Positions 43,441-48,012 of a stretch of 64,000 nt of DNA are shown piece after piece. Source of the DNA: a bacterium (GTDB lineage Bacteria > Bacillota > Bacilli > Lactobacillales > Streptococcaceae). Positions within the stretch are counted from its first letter, which is position 1, and every line of letters begins with the position of its first letter. The notes under the pieces are model-generated. The model was not told the DNA's origin and did not search any database. It worked only from the letters and a program-made list of their open reading frames with translations. Made by a program: the position numbers and the translations under genes. The stretch covers positions 62,001-126,000 of the forward strand of contig CAJNDF010000004.1 in assembly GCA_905221455.1 (NCBI GenBank), given 5' to 3'.

Positions 43441-44820
43441 TTATTTTTCAGCTGTAAGTGCAGCCATTGTGATGTAGTTGTATGGTTTGTTAAAGTGTGG
43501 CAAGAAGAAGAGGTCTGTCAATGCCAATTTATCAATTGTCACATGCTCTTGGATAGCAAGAGAGAACATGTGAATTCCCATGCTGATTGAAATATCATGT
43601 GAAACCATTTGGGCACCAAGAATTTCACGACTATCTTTGTCAAAGACAATCTTAATCGCTACTTCATGGTTATCATGTTTCATGAATTCTGGTTTTTGAA
43701 GATCGTTAAAGCCTGTTTCAGTTGCATTGTAACCAGCAGCTTTAGCTTTCTCAAGAGTCAAACCAGTTGAAACCATATGAAGACCGTAAATAGAGATACC
43801 GTTTGATCCTTGCACACCGATTCCTTCCAATTCATGTCCACAAGCGTTGTAAGCACCAACGATACCAGTACGAACAGCATTTGAAGCAAGGGCGATGTAA
43901 CTTGTATCTTTACGAGCATTGTCATAAACAGTCGCACAGTCACCAACGGCAAATACACCTGGAAGTGAAGTTTCTTGTTTTTTATCTACAAGGAAGGCAC
44001 CGTTACGGAAGAGTTCAATCTTACCATCAGCAAGGGCTGTATTTGGACGGAAACCAACCGCAAGGATAACCATGTCCACATCAAAGCTTTCTTTGTCAGT
44101 AATCAAGCGTTCAACTTTACCGTCACCTTCGATTGCTTTGACAGTTTGACCAAGTGCCAAGCGAATGTTGTGGTCTTCCAAGTTCTTAGCCATCATTTGT
44201 GTGAAGTCTTTGTCATAGTAACCGTTCAAGACAGTATCTACTATGTCAACAAGGACAACTTCTTTTCCAAGACGCTCAAAGGCTTCAGCAAGTTCAACAC
44301 CGATATAACCACCACCAACAACGGCGATACGGTCAAGGTGTTGGCTCTTGTCAGCAAGTTTATTGATAACTTCTTCAGCATTTTGGTACAATTTCACGAA
44401 TTGTACGTTTTCAAGAGTTGCTTTAAATTCGCGGTTTCCTTTAACAATTTCAACACCTTCGATTGGTGGCAAAATTGGTGTAGAACCTGTAGCGAAAATC
44501 AATTTTTCGTATGATTCTTTGTGCTCTTTTCCTTCAACTTCGGCTGTAACTACTTTGTTATCATAGTCGATTGAAAGAACTGGCGAGTTCATGTAAACCT
44601 TAGCGCCTTTAGCTTCCAATTTTTCTTTATCAGAATAGAACAAGCCTTCAGCACCGTCAATTTGCTCCCCAATCCAAAGGGCCATTCCACATCCTAGGAA
44701 AGAGATGTTAGAGTTTTGGTCAAATACAACGATTTCGTTCTCATTACCAAAATTATCCAACATCGTATTAATACATGCTGTACCAGCGTGGTTAGCACCG
44801 ACTACAACGATCTTACTCAT
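43441..44820 (-). CDS. nox: Water-forming NADH oxidase
   Basis: A 459-residue flavoprotein that reduces O2 to water with NADH. The FAD-binding N-terminus is [12 protein letters not shown], the redox-active Cys44 (single, sulfenic acid type) is in [11 protein letters not shown], and the NADH site is [17 protein letters not shown] near 163-179. The C-terminal dimerisation domain begins near 340. It regenerates NAD+ and lowers oxygen stress; in streptococci it also affects competence and virulence. Its promoter overlaps a consensus cre site, so sugar status probably sets expression. Confidence 0.96.
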
Positions 44821-45126: not shown

Positions 45127-46050
45127 TTGCCTCTTAGTTCACATTCTGAACGCCTAATGGGAACCACTATCACTATTTCATTAGTGGATGAACGAGCAGA
45201 TAGCTTGCTCCAAAAATCCTTTGATTTACTCAGAGAGCTAGAATACCGCTTCAATGCCAATAGTCAAGAATCTGAGTTGATGGAAATCAATCACCAAGCT
45301 GGAATAGCCCCCGTCAAGGTTCATCCAGACCTGTTTGAACTGATTTCACTTGGGTTAGAGCATAGCCTAACGCCCTCTAGCCATCTCAACATCAGTATTG
45401 GTCCCTTAATTCAAACCTGGCGCATCGGTTTTTCGGATGCCAAAGTTGCCCAACCTCAAGAAATTGAATCCGTGCTCCCTTTAATCAATCCTCATTTTAT
45501 CGAGTTAGATTCTTCTACTTCGACTGTGTTTCTAAAACAGAAAGGAATGAAGATAGACCTAGGTTGTTTAGCCAAGGGTTATAGTGCGGATAAGGTTGCC
45601 CAATTTCTGAGAGAAGAGGGAGTGACTTCTGCCTTGATCAATCTAGGAGGAAATATCCTGACCATTGGAAAAAATCAGGCAAGAGGAAATCAGCCTTGGC
45701 AAATCGGGATTCAAGATCCAGCCAATCCTCGGGGAAATCACTTAATGACTATCCCTGTTGTCAATCAATCTGTCGTGACTTCAGGCATTTATGAACGTCA
45801 CCTGACAGTCGATGGAAAAGATTACCATCATATTTTTGACAGCCAAACAGGATATCCTGTTGAAACGGAACTTGCTAGTCTCACAATCATCTCTGATAAA
45901 TCAGTCGATGGTGAAATCTGGACAACTCGACTCTTTGGAGAAAGACCTGCTTCTATCCTTTGGCAAGTCGAAAGTTTGGAGGGGATTGAAGCGATTCTGA
46001 TTGATAAGGAAGGTCACCTAAGTTGTTCGTCAGGAATTCCTACTCTATAG
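45127..46050 (+). CDS. apbE: FAD:protein FMN transferase without export signal
   Basis: A 307-residue ApbE that moves FMN from FAD onto Ser/Thr of target proteins. It starts with TTG, eight bases after AAAGGAG. Key motifs are LMGTTITISL, GCLAKGYSADKVAQFL (about 147-161), INLGGNILTIG and HHIFDSQTGYPVE (His235, Asp238, Thr241). Most ApbE proteins are lipoproteins or exported; this one begins directly with the catalytic domain and has no lipobox, so it should act in the cytosol. Two reductases follow, the second bearing two target motifs, so the cluster probably contains both enzyme and substrate. Confidence 0.93.
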   Translation: MPLSSHSERLMGTTITISLVDERADSLLQKSFDLLRELEYRFNANSQESELMEINHQAGIAPVKVHPDLFELISLGLEHSLTPSSHLNISIGPLIQTWRIGFSDAKVAQPQEIESVLPLINPHFIELDSSTSTVFLKQKGMKIDLGCLAKGYSADKVAQFLREEGVTSALINLGGNILTIGKNQARGNQPWQIGIQDPANPRGNHLMTIPVVNQSVVTSGIYERHLTVDGKDYHHIFDSQTGYPVETELASLTIISDKSVDGEIWTTRLFGERPASILWQVESLEGIEAILIDKEGHLSCSSGIPTL

Positions 46051-46109: not shown

Positions 46110-46715
46110 ATGTTAAAACTTATTGCTATTGTTGGAACAAATTCAAAACGTTCTACAAACCGTCAATTGCTTCAATACATGCAAAAACACTTTGCTGACA
46201 AAGCTGAAATTGAACTTGTTGAAATCAAGGACATTCCTGTCTTCAACAAACCAGCTGACAAGCAAGTACCTGCTGAAATCTTAGAAATTGCTGCTAAAAT
46301 TGAAGAGGCTGATGGTGTTATTATCGGTACTCCTGAATATGATCACTCTATTCCAGCTGTTTTGATGAGCGCTCTTGCTTGGTTGTCTTATGGTATTTAC
46401 CCACTTTTGAACAAACCAATCATGATTACAGGTGCTTCTTACGGTACACTTGGTTCATCACGCGCCCAATTACAACTTCGTCAAATCTTAAACGCACCAG
46501 AAATTAAAGCAAGTGTACTGCCTGATGAATTCTTGCTTTCACACTCTCTTCAAGCCTTTAATCCAAGTGGCGACTTGGTTGACCTTGATGTTATTAAAAA
46601 ACTGGATGCCACTTTTGACGACTTCCGTATCTTTGTAAAAATTACAGAAAAATTGCGCAACGCACAAGAACTACTTCGCAAAGATGCTGAAGACTTTGAC
46701 TGGGAAAATTTGTAA
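46110..46715 (+). CDS. NADPH-dependent FMN reductase family protein
   Basis: A 201-residue flavodoxin-like protein. The phosphate-binding loop is VGTNSKRSTNRQLL (about 8-21), the flavin-ring loop is IIGTPEYDHSIPAVLMSALAWLS, and ITGASYGTLGSSRAQ follows, as in the YieF/azoreductase-like group. It binds FMN and passes electrons from NAD(P)H to flavin, quinone or an unknown acceptor. It is a clear paralogue of the N-terminal domain of the next gene, 18 bases downstream, so the two may form a heteromer. AAAGGAAATC precedes the ATG. Confidence 0.9.
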   Translation: MLKLIAIVGTNSKRSTNRQLLQYMQKHFADKAEIELVEIKDIPVFNKPADKQVPAEILEIAAKIEEADGVIIGTPEYDHSIPAVLMSALAWLSYGIYPLLNKPIMITGASYGTLGSSRAQLQLRQILNAPEIKASVLPDEFLLSHSLQAFNPSGDLVDLDVIKKLDATFDDFRIFVKITEKLRNAQELLRKDAEDFDWENL

Positions 46716-46733: not shown

Positions 46734-47972
46734 ATGAAATTTGTTGGACTTGTAGGATCAAACTACGATCAATCATATAACCGTAAACTCTTGGAATTTA
46801 TCCGCCGTCACTTCAAACTCAAATTTGAATTAGAAGTTCTTGAAATTGACGAAGTTCCAATGTTTAACCAAGACGAAAAATGGGACGAAAGTTTCCAATT
46901 GCGTCTCTTGTATAACAGAATTACACGTGCTGACGGTGTCATTATCGCTACCCCTGAGCACAACCACACAATCTCAGCTTCTCTTAAATCTGTTCTTGAA
47001 TGGCTTTCATATGAAGTTCATCCATTTGAAAACAAACCAGTCATGATTGTGGGTGCTTCTTACTACGACCAAGGTACTTCTCGTGCCCAAGTTCACCTTC
47101 GTAAGATTCTTGACGCTCCAGGTGTCAATGCCTACACACTTCCAGGTAACGAATTCCTTCTTGGTAAAGCCAAAGAAGCATTTGACGCAGAGGGTAATAT
47201 CACGAACGAAGGAACTATTAATTTCCTTGAAACCTGCTTGGACAACTTTGTAAAATATGTGGGAGTCGTTTCAAAATTGAAAAAACCAAAACCAATTGAA
47301 CCAGAAGATTTATATTGTACAAATTCAATTGCAACTACCATTCAAGGTGTTGACCCTGATGATCCTGAATGGGTAGAAAAAGCAGCTGAACTTGTTGGAG
47401 CTGTTTCAGGAGATACTTACGTTAAATTAGACCACGGTATCTTAACAGTTAACCAAATTGATATGTTCTTGAAAGCAATGCCATTTGAATTGACATTTGC
47501 AGACGATAATAACCAATTCTTGTACTTTAATGACGCACACCAAGATCCAAATACAATGTTTGGTAAACGTGTACGTGCTCAATCAGGAAACCGTTTAGGA
47601 ACTGTACACGGTTCATTGCCAGATTCTAGAATGAAAAACGTTGAATGGGTTGTCGGCGTATTGCGTAACGGGGACCAAGAATATGTCCGTACAATTGTTC
47701 CAGGAACACCAGAAGGCGTTATTAATACCCATAATTACCAAGCAATGTACTATCCAGATGGTTCATATGCTGGAATCAATGAAATCATCTTTAATTTCCA
47801 ACCATGGCTTGACTGGTACCTTAATACAACTGGTCAACGTCTAGTCGGCGGAAATGCTGCAGCTCCTGCTGGTGGACATGGCGGAGCAGATGCTACATCT
47901 GGAGCTTCTGATTCAGGTGATACTGGAGGCCACGGTGGTGGCGCAGACGCTACATCTGGTGCAAGCAACTAA
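46734..47972 (+). CDS. Flavodoxin-like reductase with PAS-like domain and two C-terminal flavinylation motifs
   Basis: A 412-residue modular protein. Residues 1-185 are an FMN-reductase domain (VGSNYDQSYNRKLLEF, IIATPEHNHTISASLKSVLEWLS). After a linker, residues about 225-360 look PAS-like (MPFELTFADDNNQFLYFNDA) and resemble the C-terminal part of DUF438 proteins. The tail, 380-412, is Gly/Ala/Asp-rich and holds DATSGAS twice (386-392 and 405-411), each a perfect ApbE target motif with acceptor Ser392 and Ser411. The gene is three cistrons from apbE. I infer a soluble protein carrying one non-covalent and two covalent FMNs. There is no signal peptide. The redox partners are unknown. Confidence 0.87.
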   Translation: MKFVGLVGSNYDQSYNRKLLEFIRRHFKLKFELEVLEIDEVPMFNQDEKWDESFQLRLLYNRITRADGVIIATPEHNHTISASLKSVLEWLSYEVHPFENKPVMIVGASYYDQGTSRAQVHLRKILDAPGVNAYTLPGNEFLLGKAKEAFDAEGNITNEGTINFLETCLDNFVKYVGVVSKLKKPKPIEPEDLYCTNSIATTIQGVDPDDPEWVEKAAELVGAVSGDTYVKLDHGILTVNQIDMFLKAMPFELTFADDNNQFLYFNDAHQDPNTMFGKRVRAQSGNRLGTVHGSLPDSRMKNVEWVVGVLRNGDQEYVRTIVPGTPEGVINTHNYQAMYYPDGSYAGINEIIFNFQPWLDWYLNTTGQRLVGGNAAAPAGGHGGADATSGASDSGDTGGHGGGADATSGASN

Positions 47973-47983
47973 TAGTAGTTTTA

Positions 47984-48006
47984 GGAACCATTTTGGTTCC
48001 TTTTTT
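47984..48006 (+). terminator. Terminator of the apbE-reductase cluster
   Basis: GGAACCA/TGGTTCC with a three-base loop, then TTTTTT, starting 11 bases after the stop codon. Confidence 0.92.
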
Positions 48007-48012
48007 AGTGAC

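Follow-up and report, generated by a model that had tools for sequence, protein, structure and literature searches.

Gene run and domains

The window, by which we mean the whole 64-kb stretch of DNA that was analysed, contains a run of three genes on the forward strand that we refer to as apbE, SMALL and BIG. The first, apbE (45127 to 46050), lies two genes upstream of BIG and is predicted to encode an FAD:protein FMN transferase of 307 amino acids (Pfam ApbE, E 1.2e-76). SMALL (46110 to 46715) encodes a 201-residue FMN_red protein (Pfam FMN_red, 4e-35) and is the presumed FRedA-like partner of BIG, which follows after a gap of 18 bases as an ATG frame for 412 amino acids (46734 to 47972). A terminator-like hairpin with an 8-pair stem and then a T run is present 3' of BIG (47983 to 48009, forward strand), three such hairpins being found in the 64-kb stretch against 2.5 expected by chance. 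A plasmid search with apbE, SMALL and BIG gave no match. The gene for a water-forming NADH oxidase (43441 to 44820; NOXase_Strep, 762 bits) adjoins apbE divergently. We rejected this nox gene as a functional partner of BIG; it is found beside only 5 of 63 clustered loci, all of them streptococcal, so that the neighbour is probably lineage-specific.

The product of BIG starts with an FMN_red domain of flavodoxin-like fold (residues 1-147, 46734 to 47174; Pfam E 7.7e-34), continues with a PAS_10 domain (PF13596; residues 242-355, 47457 to 47798; E 6.8e-21, 75.4 bits against a cut-off of 22.1) and ends in a disordered Gly/Ala/Asp/Ser tail with variable linkers (residues 372-412, 47847 to 47969), for which the AlphaFold2 model gives a pLDDT below 50, about 30-45, at residues 373-412. 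The tail carries DATSGAS twice, at residues 386-392 (motif 1, 47889 to 47909) and 405-411 (motif 2, 47946 to 47966), with Ser392 and Ser411 as the expected acceptors. The original prediction had described BIG as a soluble protein with FMN-reductase-like and PAS-like domains, two such motifs in a flexible tail and apbE in the same cluster, and in all these respects our analysis agrees with it. BIG in this way combines FMN_red with a disordered C-terminal extension containing D-x-x-[ST]-G-A-[ST], the combination that marks ApbE-flavinylated FMN_red proteins. Pfam listed neither FMN_bind (PF04205) nor FAD_binding_2 for BIG at E values up to 10, nor any output domain. Residues S9, S14 and S109 were 96-100% conserved in an alignment of 69 sequences, and they resemble, matched by description only, the pocket residues Ser9, Ser14 and Ser106/111 named for FRedA/B in the text of PMC4500961. 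When SMALL and BIG were predicted as one fused chain the pTM was 0.39, with no confident arrangement.

Tail motifs and their link to ApbE

We searched for motifs with a strict pattern, D-x-x-[ST]-G-A-[ST], following the review PMC12052999, and with a relaxed one that also permits Ser or Ala at the fifth position. Both copies in BIG are strict. When the 41-residue tail was shuffled 200,000 times, one motif or more arose in 1.2% of trials and two or more in 0.0015% (1.5e-5), and no motif was found in the other stop-to-stop frames of at least 90 codons in the window (26,066 residues scanned). The two copies in BIG differ at six bases, every one synonymous. Two D..[STA]GAS motifs were present in 77 of 80 streptococcal loci; these used 48 distinct codon pairs, and motif 1 differed from motif 2 by a mean of 3.8 synonymous and 0.10 non-synonymous codons. 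The majority residue accounted for 80% and 74% in the motif columns, compared to 31% and 21% in the linkers (69 sequences). Strict or relaxed motifs, 1-7 per protein, were found in 57 of 58 diverse Lactobacillales loci. A chance origin of the paired motifs is excluded because of the shuffle rate, the synonymous-only differences and this presence in orthologues, and on these sequence comparisons the motifs are under strong purifying selection.

The 58 diverse loci were chosen for spread, 44 from the genomes with BIG in the order search and 14 from the family search, G060 among these 14 belonging to the order sample as well, and proportions in this hand-chosen set are not population estimates. 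Strict motifs numbered none in 10 of these loci, one in 7, two in 20, three in 17, four in 3 and six in 1; among the 80 streptococcal loci there were two in 71, one in 8 and none in 1. Absence of the tail or motif from orthologues, which the original prediction had named as grounds against itself, was mostly not seen, as 79 of the 80 streptococcal and 48 of the 58 diverse loci have a strict motif. Nine of the ten diverse loci without one retain relaxed copies, and L235 has neither. Given the range of 1-7 strict or relaxed copies, no fixed number seems to be needed. The position is more constant: in a tally that left out one streptococcal locus interrupted by N (L063), the distance from the end of the last strict or relaxed motif to the C terminus was 1-5 residues in 129 of 136 motif-bearing proteins and 20 residues in the other 7, which is also the number with DATAGAS as the last copy, and none of 137 proteins had a motif within its first 350 residues.

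Some tails depart from the pattern. At L005, L016 (S. pneumoniae), L012, L036, L037, L039 and L040 the second motif is DATAGAS, with Ala at position 4, so that they keep only one strict motif. The tails at L204, L209, L210, L212, L213, L215 and L219 contain only copies of the D-x-x-[ST]-S-A-[ST] type and have apbE nearby. As apbE is near 7 of the 10 diverse loci without a strict motif, ApbE may there accept Ser at the Gly position, which hints at a wider motif. Changing Gly to Ala in a flavinylation motif left about 50% modification in one study, according to the text of the review (PMC12052999), and some of the tails without a strict motif may therefore be poorly modified. Five motif-like repeats, of which three read D-x-x-T-G-S-S, are present in an FMN_red tail protein at L153:1072-2049.

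The best solved relative of the apbE product is the Listeria structure 7esa (E 1.5e-76), whose entry is titled FAD:protein FMN transferase and which we take to be FmnB. The gene starts with TTG and no signal sequence is apparent in the 307 residues. The stop-to-stop frame has 313 amino acids in G043, G092 and G170, which are near relatives, leaving little room for an N-terminal signal, and the ApbE of the window looks like a cytosolic type. The strongest ApbE matches among those listed in the order sample were mostly in longer frames of about 350-410 amino acids, a length expected for exported ApbE.

At the diverse loci apbE was within the fetched flanks of BIG in 36 of 58. Of the 22 genomes without a flanking copy, 14 were in the order sample and all 14 had ApbE elsewhere. 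In that sample at least 120 of 295 Lactobacillales genomes had a match of BIG length among the matches listed, and ApbE was found in all 120 of these compared to 144 of the 175 others (Fisher p 5e-8, with BIG taken from the matches listed and kinship ignored). Five streptococcal genomes that were searched had one ApbE each; FMN_bind proteins were absent from three S. mitis-like genomes and numbered one in each of the two others. G092, a single-contig S. mitis-like genome, contains one ApbE and no FMN_bind match. A degenerate motif pattern gave 12 DNA matches there, compared to 5 for a reversed control pattern, and only two of the 12 were protein motifs in frames of at least 80 codons, both in the BIG tail. 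With a single ApbE, no FMN_bind and no other strict motif, the BIG tail is the only visible substrate in this genome.

The presence of BIG is patchy, and some streptococci, G040, G046 and G077 among them, gave only weak FMN_red matches. Four loci chosen for a short large frame proved to be tail-less pairs of SMALL and an FMN_red protein; two of their genomes (G234, G316) were without ApbE and two (G332, G411) had one each, in frames of 375 and 369 amino acids. By match score alone, G365 and G377 also seem to be without a tail, with no ApbE in the former and one in the latter.

Huang et al. 2024 describe, in the article text, FMN_red proteins with 1-2 C-terminal motifs near apbE, and two of these, from Lactococcus lactis and L. 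taiwanensis, carried covalent FMN on gels in a manner that required the Ser/Thr of the motif (PMC11334425). Together with the motif and the selection on it, these experiments indicate that the BIG tail is very likely flavinylated. The opposite reading, in which the tail stays unmodified in the host and the motifs serve another purpose, would fit the degenerate motifs of a few relatives and the fact that attachment to BIG is so far a prediction, but selection acts at the level of the motif and the one ApbE of G092 has no other visible substrate, and we consider it most improbable.

The partner subunit and the neighbourhood

SMALL lies immediately upstream of BIG, on the same strand, in all 58 diverse loci. 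The earlier interpretation of BIG is right about the domains, the motifs and the linkage to apbE, but it overlooked this partner, and the layout it describes is common. A quick tree was built from 103 FMN_red domains, for which a subsample of 36 rows each was taken for SMALL and BIG in addition to those of the window. Groups were taken from clades and loci, the initial labels being crude (L257 and several PAS-bearing proteins were labelled TAILONLY, and two rows of the tail clade SMALL). SMALL and the PAS-less tail proteins were split from BIG and the proteins of FMN_red-FMN_bind-FAD_binding_2 order (99% SH-aLRT). The SMALL genes of both kinds of module clustered (96%), as expected if the pair predates the split of the large subunits. 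SMALL and BIG are two adjacent FMN_red paralogues from distinct clades, as expected of a FRedA/B-type reductase, and the functional unit of BIG is very likely a heterodimer with SMALL.

The PAS-less tail proteins formed a clade of their own (98%) on the SMALL side, which makes more than one gain or loss of tails probable. The relatives of these proteins belong to Lactococcus, Lactovum and Weissella as well as other lactic acid bacteria, and some genomes have both kinds of tail protein (L145 and L156, both in G053). A separate PAS_10 gene followed apbE in 3 of 14 PAS-less tail loci, an association that in BIG takes the form of a fusion. At L269, L270 and L272 the PAS-less tail gene, apbE and the PAS_10 gene are consecutive; the FMN_red gene of L272 (G061) is broken into two frames.

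Apart from SMALL and apbE, no constant partner gene was found beside BIG among the 63 clustered loci, and the commonest further neighbour family, resembling XRE-type regulators, was present at 17. A regulator judged XRE-like by eye, of about 275-330 amino acids, is directly upstream of apbE or SMALL at 15 loci (L205, L206, L208, L210-L213, L215, L217, L219-L224), and a relative of it is 4 kb downstream at L228. Directly 3' of BIG, 7 of the 63 loci (L042, L243, L244, L246, L247, L253, L255) have a transporter-like gene, presumably of the formate/nitrite (FNT) family.

These neighbourhoods bear on two further functions that the tail could have. As a docking arm it might deliver electrons to a partner reductase, comparable to the FMN_red fused to FMN_bind and FAD domains in the HcrB/fumarate-reductase-like paralogue. 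The sister branch of BIG, which consists of SMALL and FMN_red-FMN_bind-FAD_binding_2 modules (about 810 amino acids; L114, L120, L257), is consistent with this, as are the FNT-transporter-like genes and the description of HcrA/HcrB as a heterodimer in the text of PMC10295242, but no partner gene beside BIG is constant, the commonest further family reaching only 17 of 63 loci, and electron delivery of this kind is improbable. The HcrAB-type systems share with BIG the pairing of SMALL with a large FMN_red protein, whereas BIG is without FMN_bind and FAD_binding_2; HcrB itself, judging from its size and description, would have the FMN_red-FMN_bind-FAD_binding_2 order. At L120 a LysR-like gene (by eye) adjoins the module, like HcrAB.

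PAS domains are common sensors, and the one in BIG might sense whether the tail flavins are oxidised or reduced and signal it. A separate PAS protein, LjPAS, alters the rate of FRedA/B assembly (PMC4500961), which points in the same direction. However, with no output domain in BIG and no constant regulator at the 63 loci, a redox sensor is a very unlikely function. The genes and domains, the selection on the motifs, the pairing of the subunits and the co-occurrence with ApbE are established here.

Proposed electron path and known relatives

According to Valladares et al. 2015 (PMC4500961), FRedA and FRedB (LJ_0548/LJ_0549) of Lactobacillus johnsonii form an obligate heterodimer, which has two FMN sites. 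In the text of that paper the pair oxidises NADH, reduces FMN or FAD with a Km of about 20 uM and forms H2O2; its Kd for FMN is about 2 uM, it was purified with 0.58 FMN per dimer, and LjPAS slows assembly of the active complex. By this description it shares with SMALL and BIG the two adjacent FMN_red paralogues and the PAS partner, and differs from BIG in having subunits of about 21 kDa and PAS as a separate protein. The H2O2 and NADH data belong to this tail-less relative of BIG. The same genes were reportedly also studied by Hertzberger et al. 2014.

The enzyme, from an oral Streptococcus, is soluble, probably receives its electrons from NADH and probably has two covalent flavins on a floppy tail; the original proposal of NADH as the likely donor is retained on the strength of FRedA/B. 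For BIG we infer covalent FMN, an electron path, an acceptor and a role of PAS. The best explanation, which we hold at about an even chance, is that SMALL and BIG together make up a soluble NADH:flavin oxidoreductase, a heterodimer like FRedA/B, in which FMNs on the tail replace free FMN. Both FMN_red domains would, as in FRedA/B, hold exchangeable FMN at the SMALL/BIG interface that is reduced by NADH, and the cytosolic ApbE from the same run would transfer FMN, from FAD, onto Ser392 and Ser411. Electrons could then hop from the pocket FMN to the tail FMN, the tail supplying in tethered form the flavin that FRedA/B reduces free. The active site would thus always face a millimolar local FMN concentration; a rough ideal-chain estimate gives about 4-14 mM at 2-3 nm and 20-40 residues, far above the FRedA/B Km. 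That the tail flavins act as tethered acceptors in this way comes close to an even call. From the reduced tail flavins electrons may go to O2, with H2O2 as the product, or to a different small acceptor, which would dispose of NADH and O2, although O2 as the main final acceptor is on the unlikely side. The fused PAS domain would replace the separate LjPAS and might tune assembly or access of the tail.

Alternatively, the covalent FMNs may bend back into the pockets of the FMN_red domains and merely hold the catalytic flavin there, as proposed by Huang et al. 2024. AlphaFold models of the Lactococcus proteins put the tail close to the pocket (PMC11334425), the FMN binding of FRedA/B is weak and its FMN content on purification low (PMC4500961), and the two pockets per heterodimer equal the two motifs of most streptococci. 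However, at least three strict or relaxed motifs are present in 36 of the 58 diverse proteins, which exceeds the two pockets and argues against simple one-to-one filling, and the tail of BIG, which the model shows as disordered, follows the PAS domain. Furthermore, prevention of flavin loss is the main role argued for covalent FMN in extracytosolic proteins in the text of PMC11334425, whereas the SMALL/BIG system looks cytosolic. Cofactor anchoring is a rather unlikely reading.

BIG poses the question why FMN would be covalent in the cytosol, where prevention of flavin loss does not apply. If the tail is a carrier arm, covalent flavin would serve catalysis by tethering and not retention outside the cell. 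The predicted substrate of the single ApbE in S. mitis-like streptococci is the BIG tail, and the relatives form a natural series for experiments, with 0-7 motifs, tail-less pairs (some without ApbE) and PAS as a separate gene; the DATAGAS orthologues are a natural variant for comparison.

Several other known systems can be set beside BIG. In the soluble fumarate reductase of Klebsiella, FMN is carried in a folded FMN_bind domain, unlike in BIG. The C-terminal domain of SMU_1151c (PDB 2qkp) is also among the closest known systems; the remainder of that protein is unlike BIG and we know of no flavin tail in it. The Klebsiella enzyme is similar to BIG in that a cytosolic ApbE serves a soluble flavoenzyme (PMC12052999). 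Pneumococcal FlaR was rejected as the same protein, being described as a flavin reductase of 17.2 kDa that has conserved cysteines (PMC5762878). We found no literature on DUF438/PAS/hemerythrin or on a cinnamate reductase with covalently bound FMN, and no paper joining a PAS fusion, a FRedA/B pair and flavinylation, in a search that mainly covered the article text of papers outside subscription journals.

The earlier statement that no characterised protein has this layout needs correction on two sides. It misses FRedA/B with LjPAS, for which fusions to PAS had been named by 2015 from other lactic acid bacteria, EF1227 and Lp2732 (PMC4500961), and it misses the ApbE-modified FMN_red proteins of PMC11334425, which resemble BIG in FMN_red, the disordered C-terminal extension with 1-2 motifs and the nearby apbE. 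The main text of the former contains no word beginning with apbE, flavinyl or covalent, and the text of the latter lacks the phrase 'PAS domain'. The PAS-less Lactococcus tail proteins in our tree form a clade apart from BIG, and as some genomes contain both kinds of tail protein, those of PMC11334425 may be of either kind. BIG joins these two literatures, on H2O2-forming FRedA/B flavin reductases and on ApbE-modified FMN_red tails; each half is already known by itself, but their combination, which many lactic acid bacteria have, seems not to have been investigated as a unit. The new part is this union, a cytosolic FRedB that is fused to PAS, has an ApbE of its own and, by prediction, is flavinylated at several sites. 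Tentatively, it can be regarded as a cytosolic NADH oxidase, widespread in Lactobacillales, that possibly brings its own acceptor flavins, in which a swinging tail on a PAS-fused FRedB, loaded by ApbE with one to several FMNs, would convert a reductase of diffusible flavin into a self-contained, PAS-gated system for reducing O2 or another acceptor, in the manner of lipoyl and biotin arms.
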